From NCBI RefSeq assembly GCF_003387475.1, contig NZ_QUNO01000008.1, forward strand, positions 248,001-312,000: 64,000 nucleotides of DNA, written 5' to 3'. Source of the stretch: Kutzneria buriramensis (GTDB taxonomy: Bacteria; Actinomycetota; Actinomycetes; Mycobacteriales; Pseudonocardiaceae). Under the pieces are notes generated by a model. It made no database searches. It was not told where the DNA came from and saw nothing but the letters and a program-made list of their open reading frames with translations. This document shows positions 54,616-62,378 of the stretch, one piece after another; position 1 is the first letter of the stretch, and each line of letters opens with the position of its first letter. Position numbers and translations under genes: made by a program.

Positions 54616-55350
54616 GTGCGGGATCTGTCCAACGAGCAACGCGCCGATCTGGCCGCCGCCGTCGACCGGCTGGCCTCGTCGACGGCCGGGGAAACCGTGG
54701 GCCTGGAGGCCGACGGACGGCAGTTGTGGCTGGCCACGCTGACGTCGCTGCTCGCGATCCGGGACAGCGCCGAGCAGCTGGCGGCGTCCGCGGCGCTGTC
54801 GGCGGCCGAACACGGAGCCGACTACCCCGAGATCGGCGCCGCGGCCGGAATGACCAGGCAGGGGGCGCGGCGCAAGTGGCCCGGGCTGGCGGGGCTGGCC
54901 ACCCAGGGGCAGCGGAAGCTCCTGTGGTGGCACGATCACCGCGACCAGTTCCTGGACTGCGCCACGGCGGTGCTGGACATCGCCCAGGACTCGCCGTGGC
55001 TGACGAACATGCGGACCCGGATGGAAAGCGCCGAGGTCGACGCGCTGCTGATCGACGCACACGCCGTGGCGATGAACGATCCCAGCGACGCCCGTGAGAT
55101 CGGGCTGCTGGCCGCGCTCACCGCCGACGCGTACGCCGCCACCAACGGTGAACTGATCAACCGTGAGGCCAAGGCCTGTGCCACACCGGACTGTCCACAA
55201 AGGGCGGTGGTGGCGCTGTTCAGGACTGGTCACGATGTGGTGCCGGCCTGCCGGGACCATGCCGTGGAGGCACTCCGGCAGCCGGCTGTCCGCATCGTGG
55301 CCGCCTTCCAACCGGACGTGGCGCTGGAGATCTTCACGGAGTCCAGGTGA
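54616..55350 (+). CDS. HTH protein divergent from the epimerase gene
   Basis: The 244-aa protein has a probable helix-turn-helix, HGADYPEIGAAAGMTRQGARRKWPGLAG (about 75-102), followed by a long helical region and a cysteine pair in ACATPDCPQRAVVALF ... ACRDHA that may bind a metal. It is not a standard TetR or MarR protein. GTG 54616 with AAGGAG 6 nt upstream is the start. It is the likely regulator of the divergent epimerase gene; its stop overlaps the P450 3' end by 17 nt. Confidence 0.7.
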   Translation: MRDLSNEQRADLAAAVDRLASSTAGETVGLEADGRQLWLATLTSLLAIRDSAEQLAASAALSAAEHGADYPEIGAAAGMTRQGARRKWPGLAGLATQGQRKLLWWHDHRDQFLDCATAVLDIAQDSPWLTNMRTRMESAEVDALLIDAHAVAMNDPSDAREIGLLAALTADAYAATNGELINREAKACATPDCPQRAVVALFRTGHDVVPACRDHAVEALRQPAVRIVAAFQPDVALEIFTESR

Positions 55351-56542
55351 CCGGCAGCTCGTGCACGCCGTAGATGTTCATGTCGGTCCGCAGCTTCACC
55401 TCGTCGGCGGGAACGGCCAGCCGCAGCGACGGGAACCGCCGCAGCAGCCCGTCGAAGCCGGCCCGCATCTCGATCCGCGCCAGCTGCTGGCCCAGGCACT
55501 GGTGCACGCCATGCCCGAACGACACGTGACCGCGCGCCTTGCGGTGGATGGCCAGGCGCTCCGGGTTCTCGAAACGCTCGGGGTCGCGGTTGGCGGCCAG
55601 CAGCGACACCACGACGGTGGATCCCGCAGCGATGGTCTCGCCGCCGAGTTCGAGGTCCTCGCTGGCGTAGCGGTAGAAGATGTCCGCCACGGACAGGTAG
55701 CGCATGAGCTCCTCGACGGCGTCGGGCATCAGCTCCGGGTCCGCGCGCAGCTCGGCCAGCTGGTCCGGGTTCTCCAACAGCGCGAAGGTGCCCAGCGACA
55801 GCATGTTGGCGGTGGTCTCGTGCCCGGCGAGCAGCAGCAGGAAGGCGATGCCGACCAGCTCCTCGATGCTCAGGTCCTCGTCACGGGCCAGGTCGGACAG
55901 GATGTCCTCGCCCGGCTCGGCCCGCTTGCCGATCACCAGCTGCGCCAGGTACGAGGTCATCGCCCCGTAGGCGCCCATCTTCTCCTCCACGGTCTGCTCC
56001 CGGACCAGGAACTGCGCGGAGTTGAGCTGGAAGGTGTCCCGGTCGGCGTAGGGCACGCCGAGCAGCTCGCAGATCACCAGCGACGGCACCGGCAGCGCGA
56101 AGTGCTTGACCAGGTCGACCGGCGGGGCCAGCCGAGCCAGCTCGTCCAGCTGCCGCTCGACGATCTCGGCGATGTGCTCCTCCAGCGCCCGCATCCGCTT
56201 CACGGTGAACGCGCCGATGAGCTTGCGCCGCAGCCGGCCGTGGTCCGGCGGGTCCATGGCGATGAACAGGCCCGGGATCTGCGGCGACGGCTCGGTCGCC
56301 ACCGGCATACCGGGGGTCTCGTACGGCACGTGCACGACGCCGAGGTCCTGGCGCGAGCTGAACCGGGTGTCGGCCATCATCTGGCGCACCGCCTCGTAGC
56401 CGGTGACCAGCCAGCCCTGGTGGCCGTCGGGGAAGGCCAGCGGGCTGACCGGCCGGTCCGCGCGCAGCCGGGTGATGGCGCTGGGCGGCGCGAACGGGCC
56501 CGCGTCGCGATCCATCGGCAGGCCCTGAACGATGTCGGTCAT
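55334..56542 (-). CDS. Cytochrome P450
   Basis: The 402-aa P450 has the I-helix AFLLLLAGHETTANML, the ExxR motif in VEELMRYL, and the haem-binding loop VSFGHGVHQCLGQQLARIEM with the Cys ligand. The N-terminus (LPMDRDAGPFAPPSAITRLRADRPVSPLAFPDG) fits the actinomycete CYP105 group, which oxidises diverse secondary metabolites or xenobiotics. No ferredoxin gene is adjacent. Its promoter carries three 11-bp-spaced repeats also found before the ABC operon, linking it to the SARP regulator next door. Confidence 0.92.
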   Translation of the reverse strand: MTDIVQGLPMDRDAGPFAPPSAITRLRADRPVSPLAFPDGHQGWLVTGYEAVRQMMADTRFSSRQDLGVVHVPYETPGMPVATEPSPQIPGLFIAMDPPDHGRLRRKLIGAFTVKRMRALEEHIAEIVERQLDELARLAPPVDLVKHFALPVPSLVICELLGVPYADRDTFQLNSAQFLVREQTVEEKMGAYGAMTSYLAQLVIGKRAEPGEDILSDLARDEDLSIEELVGIAFLLLLAGHETTANMLSLGTFALLENPDQLAELRADPELMPDAVEELMRYLSVADIFYRYASEDLELGGETIAAGSTVVVSLLAANRDPERFENPERLAIHRKARGHVSFGHGVHQCLGQQLARIEMRAGFDGLLRRFPSLRLAVPADEVKLRTDMNIYGVHELPVTWTP

Positions 56543-56590
56543 CGGATTTCCTTCGGTCGCGGTGGTGTTGGTACGACCATCGCCGGGACG

Positions 56591-56620
56591 GCTGACACGC
56601 GGCTGTCACGGCCCTGACAC
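56591..56620 (-). promoter_or_regulatory. SARP-type direct repeats upstream of the P450 gene
   Basis: On the plus strand GCTGACAC (56591), GCTGTCAC (56602) and CCTGACAC (56613) are spaced exactly 11 bp. Read toward the P450 they are GTGTCAGG, GTGACAGC and GTGTCAGC, followed 9 nt later by a GATGGT hexamer in the place of a -10. Three heptamers at 11-bp intervals about 8 nt before the -10 is the known SARP operator layout. Confidence 0.75.
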
Positions 56621-56670
56621 CGGCTCCGAACCGGCCGCCCCGGCGGGCTGACCATGGCAAAATCGGCCCG

Positions 56671-59600
56671 GTGCAGATCGGGATACTGGGGCCGTTCGAG
56701 GTGCGTACGGACGACGGCGCGCCGGTCGACGTGCCGGGCGCCCGGCTGCGTGGGCTGCTGGCCGCCCTCGCGCTCGAACCGGGCCACGTCGTGTCGAAGA
56801 CGGCGCTGATCGACTGGATCTGGGGTGAGAACCCGCCGTCGGACGCGGCGAATGCCTTGCAGCGCCTGGTTTCCCGGCTGCGGAAGGTGCTGCCGGTCGA
56901 GGGTCTGCCGACCGGCTACCGGCTGACGGTCGATCCCGACGCCGTCGACGCCGTCCGGTTCGAGCGGCTCATCGGCGACGCCGACGATCTGGGGCGGCTG
57001 CGTGCGGCCCTCGCTTTGTGGCGGGGCTCGGCCATGCAGGACGTCGGATTGCAGGACAGCGAGGCGTTCGACGCGGCGGTCACCCGGCTGGAGGGCCTGC
57101 GCCTGACCGCGATGGAGGACCGCTTCGACGCGGAGATCGGCCTCGGTCACGGGGCGAAGGTCGTCGGCGAGCTCACCGATCTGGTGGCCGCGAATCCGGT
57201 GCGCGAACGGCTGGTCGCCGCGCTGATGCGGGCGCTGGCCGCGGCCGGCCGCGGCAACGAGGCGCTGCTCGTGTACCAGCGGACCAGGGAAACCCTGGCC
57301 GACACGCTGGGTGTCGACCCCTCGCCGGAACTGTCCGAACTGCACGTCGCGTTGCTGCGGGGCGAGCTCGGGCGGCGGGAGGAGACCCGGCGGACCAACC
57401 TGCGCGCCGAGCTGACCAGCTACGTCGGCAAGGACGACGACGTCGCCACGGTCCGCGGTCTCGTCGCCGAGCACCGGCTCACCACGCTGATCGGCCCCGG
57501 CGGCGCGGGAAAGACCAGGCTGGCCACGGAAACCGTACGCACGATGCTCGACGACCTGCCCGACGGGGCCTGGGTGATCGAGCTCGCGGCCATCAGCGCC
57601 GACGGCGATGTGGCGCAGGCGACACTCGGCGCGCTGAAGTTGCGCGACGCGCTGCTGGGCGACGCCCCGGACGCGGAGCCGACGGACCGGGTCATCGCCG
57701 CCCTGCGCGAGCGCGAGGCGCTGCTGATCCTGGACAACTGCGAGCACGTGATCGAGCCGGCGGCGGAGTTCGCGCACCGGGTGCTCGGCGAGTGCCGGCG
57801 GCTGCGGATCCTTGCCACGAGCCGGGAACCGCTGGGCATCACCGGCGAGGCGCTGTGGCCGGTCGCGCCGCTGATGCTGCCGTTGGAGGACGCCGATCCA
57901 GCCGAGATCGAGGCCGTGCCGGCCGTCCGGCTGCTCCGGGACCGAGCCGCCGCCGTGCGCAAGGACTTCGTCGCTGACGCCCGCACCATGGCGCGGGTCT
58001 GCCGTGCGCTGGACGGGATGCCGCTCGCGATCGAGCTCGCGGCGGCCCGGCTGCGCACCATGTCCTTGGAGCAGCTGGCCAATCGGCTCGACGACCGGTT
58101 CCGCCTGCTGACCGGCGGCAGCCGCACCTCGCTGCCGCGGCACCGCACGTTGCGCGCGGTGATCGACTGGAGCTGGGAGCTGCTCAGCGACGACGAACGG
58201 ATCGTGCTGCGCCGGCTGTCGGCGTTCGCCGGCGGCGCGAGCCTGGAGGCGGCCGAGCGGGTGTGCGACGCCGACGACGTGCTCGAGCTGTTGACGGCCT
58301 TGACCGAGAAATCGCTGGTGGTCACCTACGGCGACGACGCTCCGCGGTACCGGATGCTCGGCACCATCAAGGAATACGCGCAGCAGCGGCTGGCCGAGGC
58401 GGGCGAGGAGGAGCTGACGCGCCGGGCGCATCTCGCGTACTTCACGGAGCTTGCCGAGACCGCCGAGCCACATCTCCGCCGCGCCCAGCAGCTGGAATGG
58501 CTTGCGGTGCTTGAGTCCGAGCACGACAACATCGGCGCCGCCATGCGCGGCGCGCTCGCCGCCGGCGAGGCCGAGCCGGCGATGCGGCTCGCCGCGGCCG
58601 CCGGCTGGTATTGGTGGCTCGGCGGCCACAAGGCCGAGGGCAACGAGCTGATCATGGCGGCGGTGGCGCTGCCGGGCGAGGTCCCCGACGAGATCGTGGC
58701 CGTGGTCTACGCCTACGTCACGATGTTCGTGGTGTCCGGCCGGAGCGACCAGTTCGAGGCGCAGGAATGGATCCGCAAGGCTTCTGATGTCGGCCGGCGC
58801 GTCCAGAGCCGCCATCCCGCGCCGAGAGTCGTGCCGTCGCTGATCCGGCTGCTGGAACCGGATGGGGCCCTGACCGCGTGGGAACCGTTGCTGGTCGACG
58901 AGGATCCGTGGGTGCGGGCCCTCGGCCGGCTGCACTCCGGCAAGATCAGGATCCTGCTCGGCGACGGCGGGCGGGATGCGGACGCATACCTGGAGCAGGC
59001 GCTCGACGAGTTCCGCGCGATCGGCGAGCGGTGGGGAATCTCCTTCGCCCTCAACGAGTTGGCCCATCGCATCGCCATGCGCGGCGACTTCGCCGGCGCG
59101 TGTGCGTACTACGAGCAGGCGATCGCGGTCGTCACGGAGACCGGAGCCTTCGAGGACATCGTGTCATGGCGGGCGGAACAGGCCCAGTTCTCCTGGCTGG
59201 CCGGCGATCCGGAGTCGAGCGCGGCCGCCATGGCCGAGGCGCAGCGGTACGCGGAACGCGTCGCCTGGCCGGACGCGTTGGCCGAACTTGCGCTGGCCAA
59301 GGCGGAGCTCGCGCGGTGGGGCGGCGACAACGAGCAGGCGCGGCGGCACCTCGACGTCGCGACGAAGGTGTTGGGGGCCAAGGCGGAGCAGGGAAACTCG
59401 CGGTCGGTGATCGAGGAGCTGCTGGGCTACCTGGCCGAGGACCTGGACGAGGCCCGTGCGCACCATGCCGCGGCGCTGGAGGCCGCGTCCCGGGCCGGCA
59501 ACTCCGTCCAGATCGCCCGGGTGCTCGTGGGCATCGCCGATCTGGCGCTGCGCCGCGACCAGCACGAGCAGGCCGCGCGGCTGCTCGCGGCCAGCGCCGC

Positions 59601-59754
59601 CGTGCGCGGGCTGCCGGATCTCTCCCAGCCGGACGTGGCCCGGATCGGGCAGGCGACGCGAAATCGCCTCGGTGACACGAAGTTCACCGAGGCGACTGGC
59701 GAGGGGGAGCGGGCGGCCTGGCCCGAGCTGGTGGCGGTCACGCTCGCTTCTTGA
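56671..59754 (+). CDS. AfsR-like SARP regulator with NB-ARC and TPR domains
   Basis: The 1027-aa protein has an N-terminal OmpR-type winged helix (MQIGILGPFEVRTDDGAPVDVPGARLRGLLAALAL, about 1-90), a bacterial transcriptional activation domain (FERLIGDADD ... LALWRGSAMQDVGL ... LVAANPVRERLVAALMRALAAAGRGNEALLVYQRTRETLADTLGVDPSPELSELH, to about 240), an NB-ARC ATPase (LIGPGGAGKTRLATE at about 273, LLILDNCEHVIE, ILATSREPLGI, GMPLAIELAAARL), and C-terminal TPR-like repeats. AfsR-type proteins activate secondary-metabolism genes. GTG 56671 is leaderless-like, with CAAAAT upstream. Confidence 0.9.
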   Translation: MQIGILGPFEVRTDDGAPVDVPGARLRGLLAALALEPGHVVSKTALIDWIWGENPPSDAANALQRLVSRLRKVLPVEGLPTGYRLTVDPDAVDAVRFERLIGDADDLGRLRAALALWRGSAMQDVGLQDSEAFDAAVTRLEGLRLTAMEDRFDAEIGLGHGAKVVGELTDLVAANPVRERLVAALMRALAAAGRGNEALLVYQRTRETLADTLGVDPSPELSELHVALLRGELGRREETRRTNLRAELTSYVGKDDDVATVRGLVAEHRLTTLIGPGGAGKTRLATETVRTMLDDLPDGAWVIELAAISADGDVAQATLGALKLRDALLGDAPDAEPTDRVIAALREREALLILDNCEHVIEPAAEFAHRVLGECRRLRILATSREPLGITGEALWPVAPLMLPLEDADPAEIEAVPAVRLLRDRAAAVRKDFVADARTMARVCRALDGMPLAIELAAARLRTMSLEQLANRLDDRFRLLTGGSRTSLPRHRTLRAVIDWSWELLSDDERIVLRRLSAFAGGASLEAAERVCDADDVLELLTALTEKSLVVTYGDDAPRYRMLGTIKEYAQQRLAEAGEEELTRRAHLAYFTELAETAEPHLRRAQQLEWLAVLESEHDNIGAAMRGALAAGEAEPAMRLAAAAGWYWWLGGHKAEGNELIMAAVALPGEVPDEIVAVVYAYVTMFVVSGRSDQFEAQEWIRKASDVGRRVQSRHPAPRVVPSLIRLLEPDGALTAWEPLLVDEDPWVRALGRLHSGKIRILLGDGGRDADAYLEQALDEFRAIGERWGISFALNELAHRIAMRGDFAGACAYYEQAIAVVTETGAFEDIVSWRAEQAQFSWLAGDPESSAAAMAEAQRYAERVAWPDALAELALAKAELARWGGDNEQARRHLDVATKVLGAKAEQGNSRSVIEELLGYLAEDLDEARAHHAAALEAASRAGNSVQIARVLVGIADLALRRDQHEQAARLLAASAAVRGLPDLSQPDVARIGQATRNRLGDTKFTEATGEGERAAWPELVAVTLAS

Positions 59755-60481
59755 ACGTCGAGGACGCCCAGAGGTAGCCGACCAGCGCGATCCCCACGCA
59801 CCAGGCCAGGGCGGCGATCACGTCGCTCGTGGCCGGGGCGCCGTTGAGCAGGCCGCGCAGCGTCTCGATGATCGGCGTGAACGGCTGGTACTCGGCGAAC
59901 TGCCGGACGCCCTGCCCCATCTTGTCCGCCGGCACGATCGCGCTGCTGAAGAACGGCAGCATGACCAGCGGCACCGAGGCCAGGCCGGCGGTCTCCGGGG
60001 ACTTCGCCGCCAGGCCGAGGGCGACCGTGAACCAGCCCGTCGTGAAACCCAGCAGCGCCACCATGCCGATCACGGCGAGCCAGTCGAGCGGACTCGCCGC
60101 CGGGTGGAAGCCCAGCAGGAACGCGACGCCCACGATTGCCGCCATGGCAACTAGATTCGTGAGCAGGCTGGCGACGACGTGCCCGGTCAGCACCGCGTCG
60201 CGGGACACGTCCATCACCTTGAAGCGGTTGATGATGCCCTTGGTCATGTCGGAATTCACTGCTGTGGCAACGGATCCCAGGCCGTAGCAGACGGCCAGCA
60301 GCAGCATGCCCGGGGTGGCGTAGTCGACGTAGTCGACGCCCACGTTGAACGCGCCGCCCAGGAGGTAGACGAACATCAGCATGACCACGACCGGCATCAG
60401 GACCGCGTTGAACACCGAGGTGGGATTCCGGGCGATGTGCTTGAAGTTGCGGCGCAGCATCACCGTCGAGTGGGACTTCAT
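59738..60481 (-). CDS. ABC-2 type transporter permease (DrrB-like)
   Basis: The 247-aa membrane protein has about six hydrophobic segments, MPVVVMLMFVYLLGGAFNVGVDYVDYATPGMLL near the start and the ABC-2 signature region TAGLASVPLVMLPFFSSAIVPADKMGQGVRQFAEYQPFTPIIETLRGLL. It pairs with the ATPase encoded just upstream (ATGA overlap) to form a drug or metabolite exporter like DrrAB. Its stop overlaps the SARP gene end by 17 nt. Confidence 0.9.
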   Translation of the reverse strand: MKSHSTVMLRRNFKHIARNPTSVFNAVLMPVVVMLMFVYLLGGAFNVGVDYVDYATPGMLLLAVCYGLGSVATAVNSDMTKGIINRFKVMDVSRDAVLTGHVVASLLTNLVAMAAIVGVAFLLGFHPAASPLDWLAVIGMVALLGFTTGWFTVALGLAAKSPETAGLASVPLVMLPFFSSAIVPADKMGQGVRQFAEYQPFTPIIETLRGLLNGAPATSDVIAALAWCVGIALVGYLWASSTFKKRA

Positions 60482-61410
60482 TTCGCGAGCACCTCCGTGG
60501 TGTGGCCGGTCAGGGCCAGGAAGACGTCATCGAGATCGGGCGTGTGGACGGCGAACCCGTCCGCGTCGAGCGAGTGCTCGTCGAGGCGGTCCAGCAGGCC
60601 CCGCAACGACTTCGTGCCGCCGTCGCTGGGCACCCGCAGCGTCAGGGCCTCGTCGTCGCGCGTGCTGCCGGCGATGATCCGAGCGGCCGAGTCGAGGTCC
60701 GCGGCGGTGGCGAAGCGGAGCCGGACGTGTGTGCCGGGGATGCGGCGCTTGAGCTCGTCCGGCGTGCCCTGAGCGACCAGGCGGCCCTGGTCCAGCACCG
60801 CGATCCGGTCCGCGAGCTGGTCGGCCTCCTCCAGGTACTGGGTGGTGAGGAAGATCGTCACGCCGTCGGAGACCAGGTCGCGGATGATCGTCCACATGGT
60901 GCGGCGGCTGCGCGGGTCCAGGCCGGTGGTCGGCTCGTCGAGGAAGATGATCCGCGGCTTGCCGACCAGCGTCATCGCCAGGTCGAGCTTGCGGCGCATG
61001 CCCCCGGAGTAGGTGGACGCCGGCTTGCGCGCCGCGTCGACCAGGTCGAACCGTTCGAGCAGCTCCTCGACGCTGCGCTTGCCGGCCTTCCGGTTCAGGT
61101 CGACCATCAGCTGCAGGTTCTCGCGGCCCGTCAGCAGTTCGTCCACCGCCGCGAACTGGCCGGTGACGCCGATCGCCGCCCGTACCGCGTTGGGGTTGGT
61201 CGCCACGTCGTGCCCCGCGACGCGGACGGCGCCGCCATCGGCCGTGATCAACGTGGTGAGCACGTTCACCGTGGTCGTCTTGCCGGCCCCGTTCGGGCCG
61301 AGCAGGGAGAACACCGTGCCGGCGGCGACGTTCAGGTCGATGCCGTCGAGCACCGTCTTGTCCTTGTAGGCCTTCCGCAACCCGGAGGCCGTGATCGCTG
61401 GCTCTGTCAT
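60478..61410 (-). CDS. ABC transporter ATPase (DrrA-like)
   Basis: The 310-aa protein has Walker A LLGPNGAGKTTTVNVL, the Q-loop IGVTGQFAAVDELLTGRENL, signature YSGGMRRKLDLAMTL, Walker B IIFLDEPTTGLDPRSR and H-loop IFLTTQYLEEAD, followed by the DrrA-type C-terminal domain ending LTGHTTEVLAK. A GTG at 61440 is in frame, but ATG 61410 is preferred because the SARP repeats occupy 61433-61462. It is coupled to the permease gene. Confidence 0.92.
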   Translation of the reverse strand: MTEPAITASGLRKAYKDKTVLDGIDLNVAAGTVFSLLGPNGAGKTTTVNVLTTLITADGGAVRVAGHDVATNPNAVRAAIGVTGQFAAVDELLTGRENLQLMVDLNRKAGKRSVEELLERFDLVDAARKPASTYSGGMRRKLDLAMTLVGKPRIIFLDEPTTGLDPRSRRTMWTIIRDLVSDGVTIFLTTQYLEEADQLADRIAVLDQGRLVAQGTPDELKRRIPGTHVRLRFATAADLDSAARIIAGSTRDDEALTLRVPSDGGTKSLRGLLDRLDEHSLDADGFAVHTPDLDDVFLALTGHTTEVLAK

Positions 61411-61432
61411 GGGAACCACTGTCAGCGGGGCG

Positions 61433-61462
61433 GCTGACACGGCCCTGACACGGCGCCGCCAC
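61433..61462 (-). promoter_or_regulatory. SARP-type direct repeats upstream of the ABC operon
   Basis: On the plus strand GCTGACAC (61433), CCTGACAC (61444) and a degenerate GCCGCCAC (61455) are spaced 11 bp. In the direction of the ABC genes the last repeat is followed after 9 nt by GACAGT, then 7 nt to ATG 61410, which suggests a leaderless message. The layout copies that of the P450 promoter. Confidence 0.7.
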
Positions 61463-61514
61463 GGTGTCCGAATCCTTCAATACGGCGCGGGCGCGGCCGT
61501 GGCAGGGTGCATGT

Positions 61515-62378
61515 ATGACCTTCGACCTCGGCCGCGCCACATCGTTCATGGCGGCCCACGCGCGCATCCTCGACCGCCGGCGATTCGCTTCGGACAGTGC
61601 CGGTGTGCTGGCGGCGGTCGACGCGTACTGCAATGCGGACGGCGGTTACGGGTGGGGTCTCGAACCCGATCTCCGCGCGCCCGAGAGCCAACCCGGCGGT
61701 GCGCTGCACGCGTTGGAGGCGATCGCGGACGCTTCGGCTTCACCCCACACCGTCGCCCTGCTCGACTGGCTCCTCTCGATCACCCTGGACGACGGCGGGT
61801 TGCCGTTCGCGCTGCCCGTCGCCGATCCCACCGCGTGCGCACCGTTCTGGGTTCAGGCCGACCCGCACACGTCCTCGTTGCAGATCACCGCAGCCGTTGC
61901 CGCCCAGGCGCATCGGGTTGCTCGCCGGGACGAGCGCGCGAGGAATCACCCTTGGCTCGCGACAGCGACGAAGTACTGCTTCGGGGCGATCCAGGACATG
62001 AACGAGCCCCCGTTCGCGTATGTCCTGTCGTTCGCCCTCCAGCTCCTCGACGCCGCCACGGACACCCATCCCGAGGCGCACGAGCTGCTGCGTCACCTCG
62101 GCCGCTTCGTGCCCGCGGACGGGGCGATGCCCGTCGTCGGCGGTGCCGAGGGCGAAACGCTGCACCTGCTCGACTTCGCGCCCGAACCCGGCCGTCCGGT
62201 GCGCGGTCTGCTCGATCCGGACGCCGTCGTCGCCGACCTCGACCGTGTCGCGAACGGCCAACAACCCGACGGCGGCTGGGCCGTCGACTTCTCCAGCTAC
62301 TCCCCGGCGGCCGCAATGGAATGGCGGGGTTACGCGACTGTCCGCGCCGTCACGACGCTCCGCTTGAACGGCCGCTGA
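61515..62378 (+). CDS. Prenyltransferase/squalene-cyclase-repeat protein
   Basis: The 287-aa protein has QW-like alpha-toroid repeats: VDAYCNADGGYGWGLEPDLRAPESQPGGALHALEAI, LDDGGLPFALPVADP, NGQQPDGGWAVDFSSYSP. These occur in terpene cyclases and prenyltransferase beta subunits, but the DxDD motif of class II cyclases is not visible, so no reaction is assigned. ATG 61515 is preferred over the frame start at 61464. It is divergent from the ABC operon, close to the SARP repeats. Confidence 0.7.
   Translation: MTFDLGRATSFMAAHARILDRRRFASDSAGVLAAVDAYCNADGGYGWGLEPDLRAPESQPGGALHALEAIADASASPHTVALLDWLLSITLDDGGLPFALPVADPTACAPFWVQADPHTSSLQITAAVAAQAHRVARRDERARNHPWLATATKYCFGAIQDMNEPPFAYVLSFALQLLDAATDTHPEAHELLRHLGRFVPADGAMPVVGGAEGETLHLLDFAPEPGRPVRGLLDPDAVVADLDRVANGQQPDGGWAVDFSSYSPAAAMEWRGYATVRAVTTLRLNGR

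Follow-up and report, generated by a model that had tools for sequence, protein, structure and literature searches.

A conserved triple-repeat operator before P450 and ABC exporter genes points to a dispersed SARP regulon in Kutzneria buriramensis and its relatives

Two operator arrays and the SARP gene between them

We analysed a 64,000-nucleotide stretch of the Kutzneria buriramensis genome (contig NZ_QUNO01000008.1, positions 248,001–312,000; the window), in which the promoters of a cytochrome P450 gene and of an ABC exporter operon each carry an array of three heptamers, and in which a gene for a large SARP-family regulator lies between the two arrays. An initial annotation had taken these arrays for SARP-type sites of the two promoters, and comparison with related genomes agrees with it: the element is conserved, has the geometry of a SARP site, and co-occurs with orthologs of the SARP encoded in between. 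It is established that the arrays are present, keep a fixed geometry, are restricted to certain genes, and accompany the SARP; comparison across genomes lends good support to the regulatory inference, with binding by the SARP itself a prediction. The same annotation had described the module as self-contained, which proved wrong, since three further arrays lie elsewhere in the genome (contigs C6, C18 and C37) and arrays precede more gene families in relatives. The features concerned are as follows.

56592–56620, minus strand: operator array 1, directed at the P450 gene (heptamers at 56614–56620, 56603–56609 and 56592–56598)
61434–61462, minus strand: operator array 2, directed at the ABC operon (heptamers at 61456–61462, 61445–61451 and 61434–61440)
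56576–56581, minus strand: GATGGT, the -10-like hexamer of the P450 promoter
61418–61423, minus strand: GACAGT, the -10-like hexamer of the ABC promoter
56671–59754, plus strand: large SARP regulator of 1027 residues, GTG start, with winged helix, BTAD, NOD/NB-ARC-like and TPR-like parts
55334–56542, minus strand: CYP105-like cytochrome P450 of 402 residues, PF00067 match, ATG at 56542
60478–61410, minus strand: DrrA-type ABC ATPase of 310 residues, TIGR01188, ATG at 61410
59738–60481, minus strand: ABC-2 permease of 247 residues, PF01061 above cut-off, 4-nt overlap with the ATPase gene

The SARP gene is thus the plus-strand member of the group, situated between both arrays, with the P450 gene and the ABC operon on the minus strand. 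Every octamer was found where the annotation had placed it (56591, 56602 and 56613; 61433, 61444 and 61455, in 11-bp steps), and both arrays are oriented toward their minus-strand targets, reading as GTGTCAG-type heptamers on the target strand: GTGTCAG-N4-GTGACAG-N4-GTGTCAG in array 1 and GTGGCGG-N4-GTGTCAG-N4-GTGTCAG in array 2. The GANNGT hexamers described as lying 9 nt after each octamer are present as GATGGT and GACAGT, and both start 10 nt past the last heptamer. Heptamer repeats in 11-bp units at a fixed distance from the -10 element are a trait of the SARP family, and both the P450 and the ATPase promoter display it. The ATG of the ATPase gene lies 7 nt past GACAGT, and a leaderless mRNA is therefore predicted for the ABC operon. 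Because array 1 lies inside the 128-bp divergent gap common to the P450 and SARP genes, its assignment to the P450 gene rests on orientation together with the comparative data.

Triples of this kind are far from what chance would give. With up to three mismatches, we found five in the 11.97-Mb K. buriramensis genome and none of the reversed pattern; with up to two mismatches, there were 56 sites in 26 of 100 genomes (K. buriramensis included), again with none of the reversed pattern. In a class-wide scan of 296 genomes at two mismatches, 28 genomes held 44 sites, and the reversed pattern turned up twice; some of the matches (for example in genomes G152 and G167) look like simple tandem repeats.

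The arrays are conserved at ortholog loci

We defined an ortholog as a SARP of at least 65% identity, found in 25 of the 100 genomes (K. buriramensis and two partial matches included). Stretches of 15 kb were taken from these genomes, the best 80 of 590 named relatives (24 named genera and one unnamed bin) were added, and removal of two duplicates left 102 distinct ortholog loci, the window among them. An array was called at these loci with at most 4 mismatches of 21, no more than 200 nt upstream of a gene. By this measure, it precedes 47 of 52 P450 genes (the exceptions being at L063, L067, L150, L154 and L165) and 73 of 79 ABC ATPase genes (the exceptions being at L055, L117, L120, L122, L128 and L149), and 20 block shuffles of the same upstream regions yielded no array. 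A further control with permuted heptamers was spoiled by cyclic shifts of GTGTCAG among the permutations (maximum 45/52 and 68/75), and we do not rely on it.

No array in the gene's own orientation precedes any of 77 permease orthologs, which is consistent with operon membership, or any of the 102 SARP genes. An array on the opposite strand occurs within 200 nt of the SARP gene at 32 of the 102 loci, as expected from the gap shared with the P450 gene; an array serving the SARP gene itself was rejected on the own-orientation count.

The spacing to the promoter is nearly invariant. The sequence xAxxxT begins exactly 10 nt past the last heptamer in 46 of 47 P450 and 73 of 73 ATPase promoters (119 of 120 together), and takes the GAxxGT form in 43 of 47 and 55 of 73, respectively. 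Since the ATPase start codon lies 22–23 nt past the heptamer in 69 of 73 cases, leaderless mRNA is predicted here too, whereas P450 start codons lie further away, mostly at 47–59 nt. Leaderless mRNAs are common in actinomycetes, amounting to 22.2% in Streptomyces avermitilis (PMC8780764).

To gauge specificity, we required an array plus a correctly placed xAxxxT across 1182 open reading frames (ORFs) from a home-made ORF caller, covering the 102 loci. This combination occurs before 64 of 70 ATPase, 43 of 50 P450, 6 of 24 DUF4097, 2 of 7 alpha/beta hydrolase, 1 of 4 serine hydrolase and 1 of 1 CPBP genes as called in this way, and before none of 101 SARP genes, 60 permease genes or three other window proteins, with a single case among the remaining 862 ORFs.

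The array stays with its target when the locus is rearranged. Relative to the SARP gene, P450 and ABC genes lie on one side or the other and point in both directions, and of seven genomes lacking a P450 gene in the SARP stretch (one of them G015, whose SARP is 57% identical), two have it elsewhere, 1.6 Mb away in G039 and on another contig in G015; both distant genes are preceded by an array. In G015, a further degenerate repeat shifts the -10 register relative to the reported triple. Distances between SARPs covary with those between P450s (r 0.69, n=49, 0/999 permutations) and less with those between ATPases (r 0.41, n=77, 0/999 permutations). Mean P450 identity across genera is 80% (n=51), which speaks for one conserved substrate type. 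The widely conserved neighbourhood comprises the four-gene core only, the next gene families being present at no more than 13 of 102 loci, and the family found at 13 looks like an antisense frame.

On a SARP tree (n=77), genus labels are clustered, though not cleanly (30 changes, with a minimum of 21 and a shuffled mean of 55.2), and the tree itself settles neither vertical descent nor transfer. One SARP/P450 locus with its array (L129) lies on the 1.07-Mb plasmid SNP1 of Streptomyces nigrescens HEK616, its P450 being 85% identical to that of the window, suggesting that the module is able to pass from one genus to another.

Presence of an array at two mismatches goes with presence of a SARP ortholog: 19 of the 25 genomes that have the ortholog carry an array, compared with 7 of the 75 that lack it (Fisher p 5e-10, with no correction for kinship).

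Array targets outside the SARP locus

The genome search for further arrays that the initial annotation had called for returned three outside the interval that it described, and a regulon confined to the SARP locus was rejected on the arrays found elsewhere in this genome and in relatives. On contig C6, the array stands before a DUF4097 gene, and an alpha/beta-hydrolase-like gene comes next. Contigs C18 (L202) and C37 (L203) open in near-identical sequence that carries an array together with the first part of a DUF4097-like gene, cut by the contig end; the first 16 codons of both resemble DUF4097, and a duplicated target gene is probably where the assembly broke.

Of the 56 arrays in the 100 genomes, 27 lie inside ortholog loci and 29 outside, and we read the downstream ORFs for all 29. 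They comprise seven DUF4097 genes plus the two contig-cut ones, seven serine hydrolases (Pfam Beta-lactamase family), two each of P450, CPBP protease, ABC ATPase and alpha/beta hydrolase (one of the latter, at L221, by eye only), one pentapeptide protein, and four that were given no class. The Pfam search covered a single member of each of four classes (DUF4097, hydrolase, CPBP and pentapeptide) as well as a second serine-hydrolase type. From the class-wide scan, 20 of the 39 places outside the K. buriramensis genome were hand-picked, favouring genus g109 and clean repeats, so that their make-up is not representative: 12 ATPases, one P450, five MMPL proteins (all g109), one weak DUF4097 match and one without a class.

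In the five g109 loci (L233, L234, L235, L240 and L241), a GTGTCAG array stands before an MMPL-family transporter gene, with Pfam MMPL confirmed on one. Four of these genes are leaderless by position (start 22–23 nt past the heptamer), with 58 nt in L241.

The encoded proteins and their likeness to known systems

The BTAD (PF03704, 119.8 bits) and Trans_reg_C (PF00486, 35.0 bits) domains of the SARP both pass the Pfam cut-offs. The AfsR chain (PDB ID: 8k60) aligns with residues 2–576, that is, through the NOD; the DNA-binding half matches AfsR and EmbR structures, and the SARP domain matches 8hvr with an E-value of 6.7e-29. The fold of this half is settled by its sequence matches to AfsR. Across 100 of the 102 ortholog loci (two were dropped for stops), residues are as in the window at 79% in the DNA-binding part, 81% in the nucleotide-binding part and 63% in the sensor half.

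The domain order appears to be that of AfsR from Streptomyces coelicolor, a large SARP with NOD and TPR parts. The window protein is not an AfsR equivalog (NF053617, 141.7 bits against a cut-off of 1430). AfsR sites are 11-bp direct repeats in which each protomer contacts the first 8 bp and leaves the last 3; Arg92 touches the T at position three, and Thr88 contacts a different base (PMC10936776). The window repeat consists of CGTGTCAG followed by three variable base pairs, likewise with T as third base, and so resembles the AfsR 8 + 3 layout. Arg92 corresponds to Arg69 of the window SARP, and together with the third-base T this makes AfsR-like docking likely; the base-contacting Thr88 differs, being replaced by Arg65. 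The -10 element is poor in both systems (CACTGT at the AfsR target afsS, GANNGT here). The repeats themselves differ, CGTT(T/C)ATCGNN for AfsR (PMC10972967) against the GTGTCAG type, as do their number (two against three) and the targets, afsS for AfsR as opposed to a P450, an exporter and scattered genes here.

Triple heptamers upstream of target promoters, as found here, are described for the cluster-situated SARPs DnrI, ActII-ORF4, VlmI and FdmR1 (PMC10972967). Those proteins regulate biosynthetic genes, whereas here no ketosynthase (KS) or condensation domain lies on the contig, C8, and conservation of the module extends to 24 named genera. The initial annotation had seen no obvious biosynthetic core gene, and this stands for the two types searched: of 58 KS matches (PF00109) and 63 condensation matches (PF00668), none is on the 467-kb contig C8 that carries the window, other core-gene types having been outside the search.

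The ATPase resembles those of DrrAB-type drug exporters and passes the drrA cut-off (TIGR01188, 319.9 bits against 312.45 in a scan of the longer ORF, which starts at 61440). The permease falls under the DrrB-type cut-offs (TIGR01247, 42.9 of 223.05; TIGR00025, 69.9 of 146.9). Among the matches listed for the P450, the nearest solved chain is CYP105AS1 (PDB ID: 4oqs; residues 8–401, E 8.9e-116), and further CYP105-type entries among the 60 matches listed are P450-SU1 (2zby) and CYP105Q4 (8swl). By the usual rule, a P450 is placed in the CYP105 family when it shares over 40% identity with its members.

The window also encodes, divergently from the ABC operon, a 304-residue protein (61464–62378, plus strand) with no Pfam match, which presumably resembles prenyltransferase/squalene-cyclase repeat proteins. 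Homologs of 55–56% identity stand beside the SARP/ABC locus in L236 (6114–7028) and L237 (1165–2037).

A second repeat code at paralog loci

We also inspected 16 loci of more distant SARPs (40–57% identity). A second code, CTGNCAG-N4-NTGTGCG-N4-NTGNCAG, precedes the ABC ATPase gene of the locus in 8 of the 16 (8 matches), each time with xAxxxT at offset 10, the same offset as for GTGTCAG arrays. It was spotted by eye and then counted on the same loci, so that this count is descriptive and no independent test; the code was absent from the 102 ortholog loci, at other spacings, and in 20 shuffles. A search of the 16 loci for three mutually similar heptamers returned none (block-shuffled control 0.2).

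Residue 65 is Ser in all eight second-code SARPs and Arg in at least 90% of orthologs. Exceptions are Ser without a second-code match in L075, L077 and L085, and, in SARPs beside GTGTCAG arrays, Ala in L070 and L226 and Thr in L228. The tie between residue 65 and the repeat code therefore appears loose.

One second-code locus is in K. buriramensis itself: L074 (G000:C7:142000–157000) encodes a SARP paralog of 42% identity (C7:147558–150608) about 3.5 kb from non-ribosomal peptide synthetase condensation domains (C7:142755–144104), with the second-code array before its own ABC ATPase gene.

Weighing the regulatory reading

Several observations weigh against assigning the arrays to the window SARP and its orthologs as activators of one module. 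The ortholog counts are biased to close relatives by the choice of the best 80 of 590, and the loci are not phylogenetically independent. Within the stretches examined, 50 of the 102 loci have no P450 gene and 24 no ATPase gene. Among spacings of 7–16 bp other than 11, 12 bp gave arrays at 11 of 79 ATPase genes and 15 bp at 1 of 79, the rest none, and the class-wide scan had its two reversed-pattern sites. The SARP gene has no array of its own, so that no autoregulation through the array is indicated. The NB-ARC (20.2 bits, cut-off 23.5) and TPR_12 (24.9 bits, cut-off 30.1) matches of the SARP are both under the Pfam cut-offs. At two mismatches, six of the 25 genomes with an ortholog have no array (G013, G029, G045, G079, G082 and G083), and seven of the 75 without a close ortholog have one (G015, with its 57% SARP, G020, G026, G027, G043, G073 and G094). 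In five of these (G020, G026, G027, G073 and G094), a distant SARP homolog lies in the same stretch as the array. Several of the arrays are beside homologs of 29–37% identity, so that other SARPs may read the same repeat.

At L226 and L228, a SARP homolog (36–37%) is divergent from an array pointing at a membrane-like or SGNH-hydrolase-like protein (both named by eye), and GTGTCAG repeats are thus also found outside the ortholog group of the window SARP.

The alternative that survives best, which we nonetheless regard as unlikely, is pathway-specific control of secondary metabolism, the P450 and exporter providing tailoring and self-resistance for an undetected cluster. P450s of the CYP105 type take part in biosynthesis as well. 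Most of the SARPs known so far control biosynthetic clusters (PMC10972967), and they typically have triple heptamers at 11-bp spacing. Against this stand the lack of KS and condensation domains on contig C8 (the two types searched), a conserved neighbourhood that reaches no further than four genes, and P450 identity near 80% across genera.

A paralogous SARP could instead be the main regulator of genuine SARP sites, or several SARPs could share the arrays. The genome holds several SARP paralogs at 40–45% identity (42–45% in the ortholog search) whose helix strings differ little, and in a few genomes that lack a close ortholog GTGTCAG arrays do occur beside the 29–37% homologs. We consider this improbable all the same, as the array tracks the ortholog locus (19 of 25 genomes against 7 of 75) and half of the 16 paralog loci carry the second code before their own ATPase gene, a code found at none of the 102 ortholog loci.

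Repression of the P450 and ABC promoters has a precedent in the medium-sized SARP Atr32, reported as a negative regulator (PMC10972967). The repeats are placed where AfsR activates, before a poor -10 element without a recognisable -35, and their fixed 10-nt register (119 of 120 promoters) suits polymerase contact, which together make repression very unlikely. Chance repetition in GC-rich DNA, with which the pairs alone would agree (8 in the window with up to three mismatches against 8.03 expected, as frequent as in shuffles), is ruled out for practical purposes by the triples (5 against 0 controls in the genome, 56 against 0 in 100 genomes) and by conservation over the 102 loci.

Proposed mechanism and significance

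We therefore retain the reading in which the window SARP or its direct orthologs bind these arrays, which the comparative data make very likely, and in which the window SARP activates rather than represses, a direction that the promoter geometry argues for with equal force. The SARP would be a STAND-type switch, with an AfsR-like winged-helix/BTAD DNA-binding half and a nucleotide-binding and TPR-like sensor half that would pick up a signal. STAND proteins stay inactive until they have bound an inducer and a nucleotide, and what induces the AfsR sensor domain is still called elusive (PMC10936776). Switched by its inducer, the SARP would line up on the three 11-bp CGTGTCAG-type repeats just upstream of the weak GANNGT -10 element, three protomers side by side where AfsR has two, and would recruit RNA polymerase as AfsR does. 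Expression of the CYP105-like P450, of the DrrA-type exporter (from a predicted leaderless mRNA) and, elsewhere, of DUF4097-type and hydrolase genes would follow.

Binding, activation, ligand and purpose are what we infer from these data, and not all with the same confidence. The probable picture is of a STAND-type SARP that responds to a chemical or envelope signal by activating a dispersed regulon for detoxification and export, which would amount to an inducible oxidation, export and envelope-protection response in place of biosynthetic-cluster control. A detoxification or resistance purpose, judged from the kinds of genes, is on balance favoured; the xenobiotic or antibiotic tailoring suggested by the initial annotation would be a possible role. 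More tentatively, and with somewhat more doubt than confidence, this could be a pan-actinomycete chemical-defence regulon, a bacterial parallel to the xenobiotic response that pairs a P450 with an exporter (phase I plus phase III), to which dispersed envelope and hydrolase genes are added. It would then belong to a group of sister modules, each SARP clade controlling an exporter of its own by a distinct triple-repeat code (GTGTCAG three times, or CTGNCAG/NTGTGCG/NTGNCAG).

Among the open-licence papers searched (most subscription papers and all preprints lie outside them), we recognised no description of this repeat, of the P450/exporter pair or of such a SARP regulon. What would be new is a SARP that governs dispersed targets through a conserved operator without being part of a biosynthetic cluster. 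SARPs are studied as antibiotic-cluster switches, and here a large SARP goes with a small, sharply defined target set over 24 named genera, a set that suggests a toxic small molecule or envelope stress as the sensed signal. The fixed operator and predicted leaderless exporter promoter offer a ready reporter for ligand finding, and the operator annotates new regulon members genome-wide with very few control matches. If the P450 and exporter do act as a detoxification pair, the regulon would bear on the intrinsic drug tolerance of actinomycetes and on the choice of P450s for biocatalysis.

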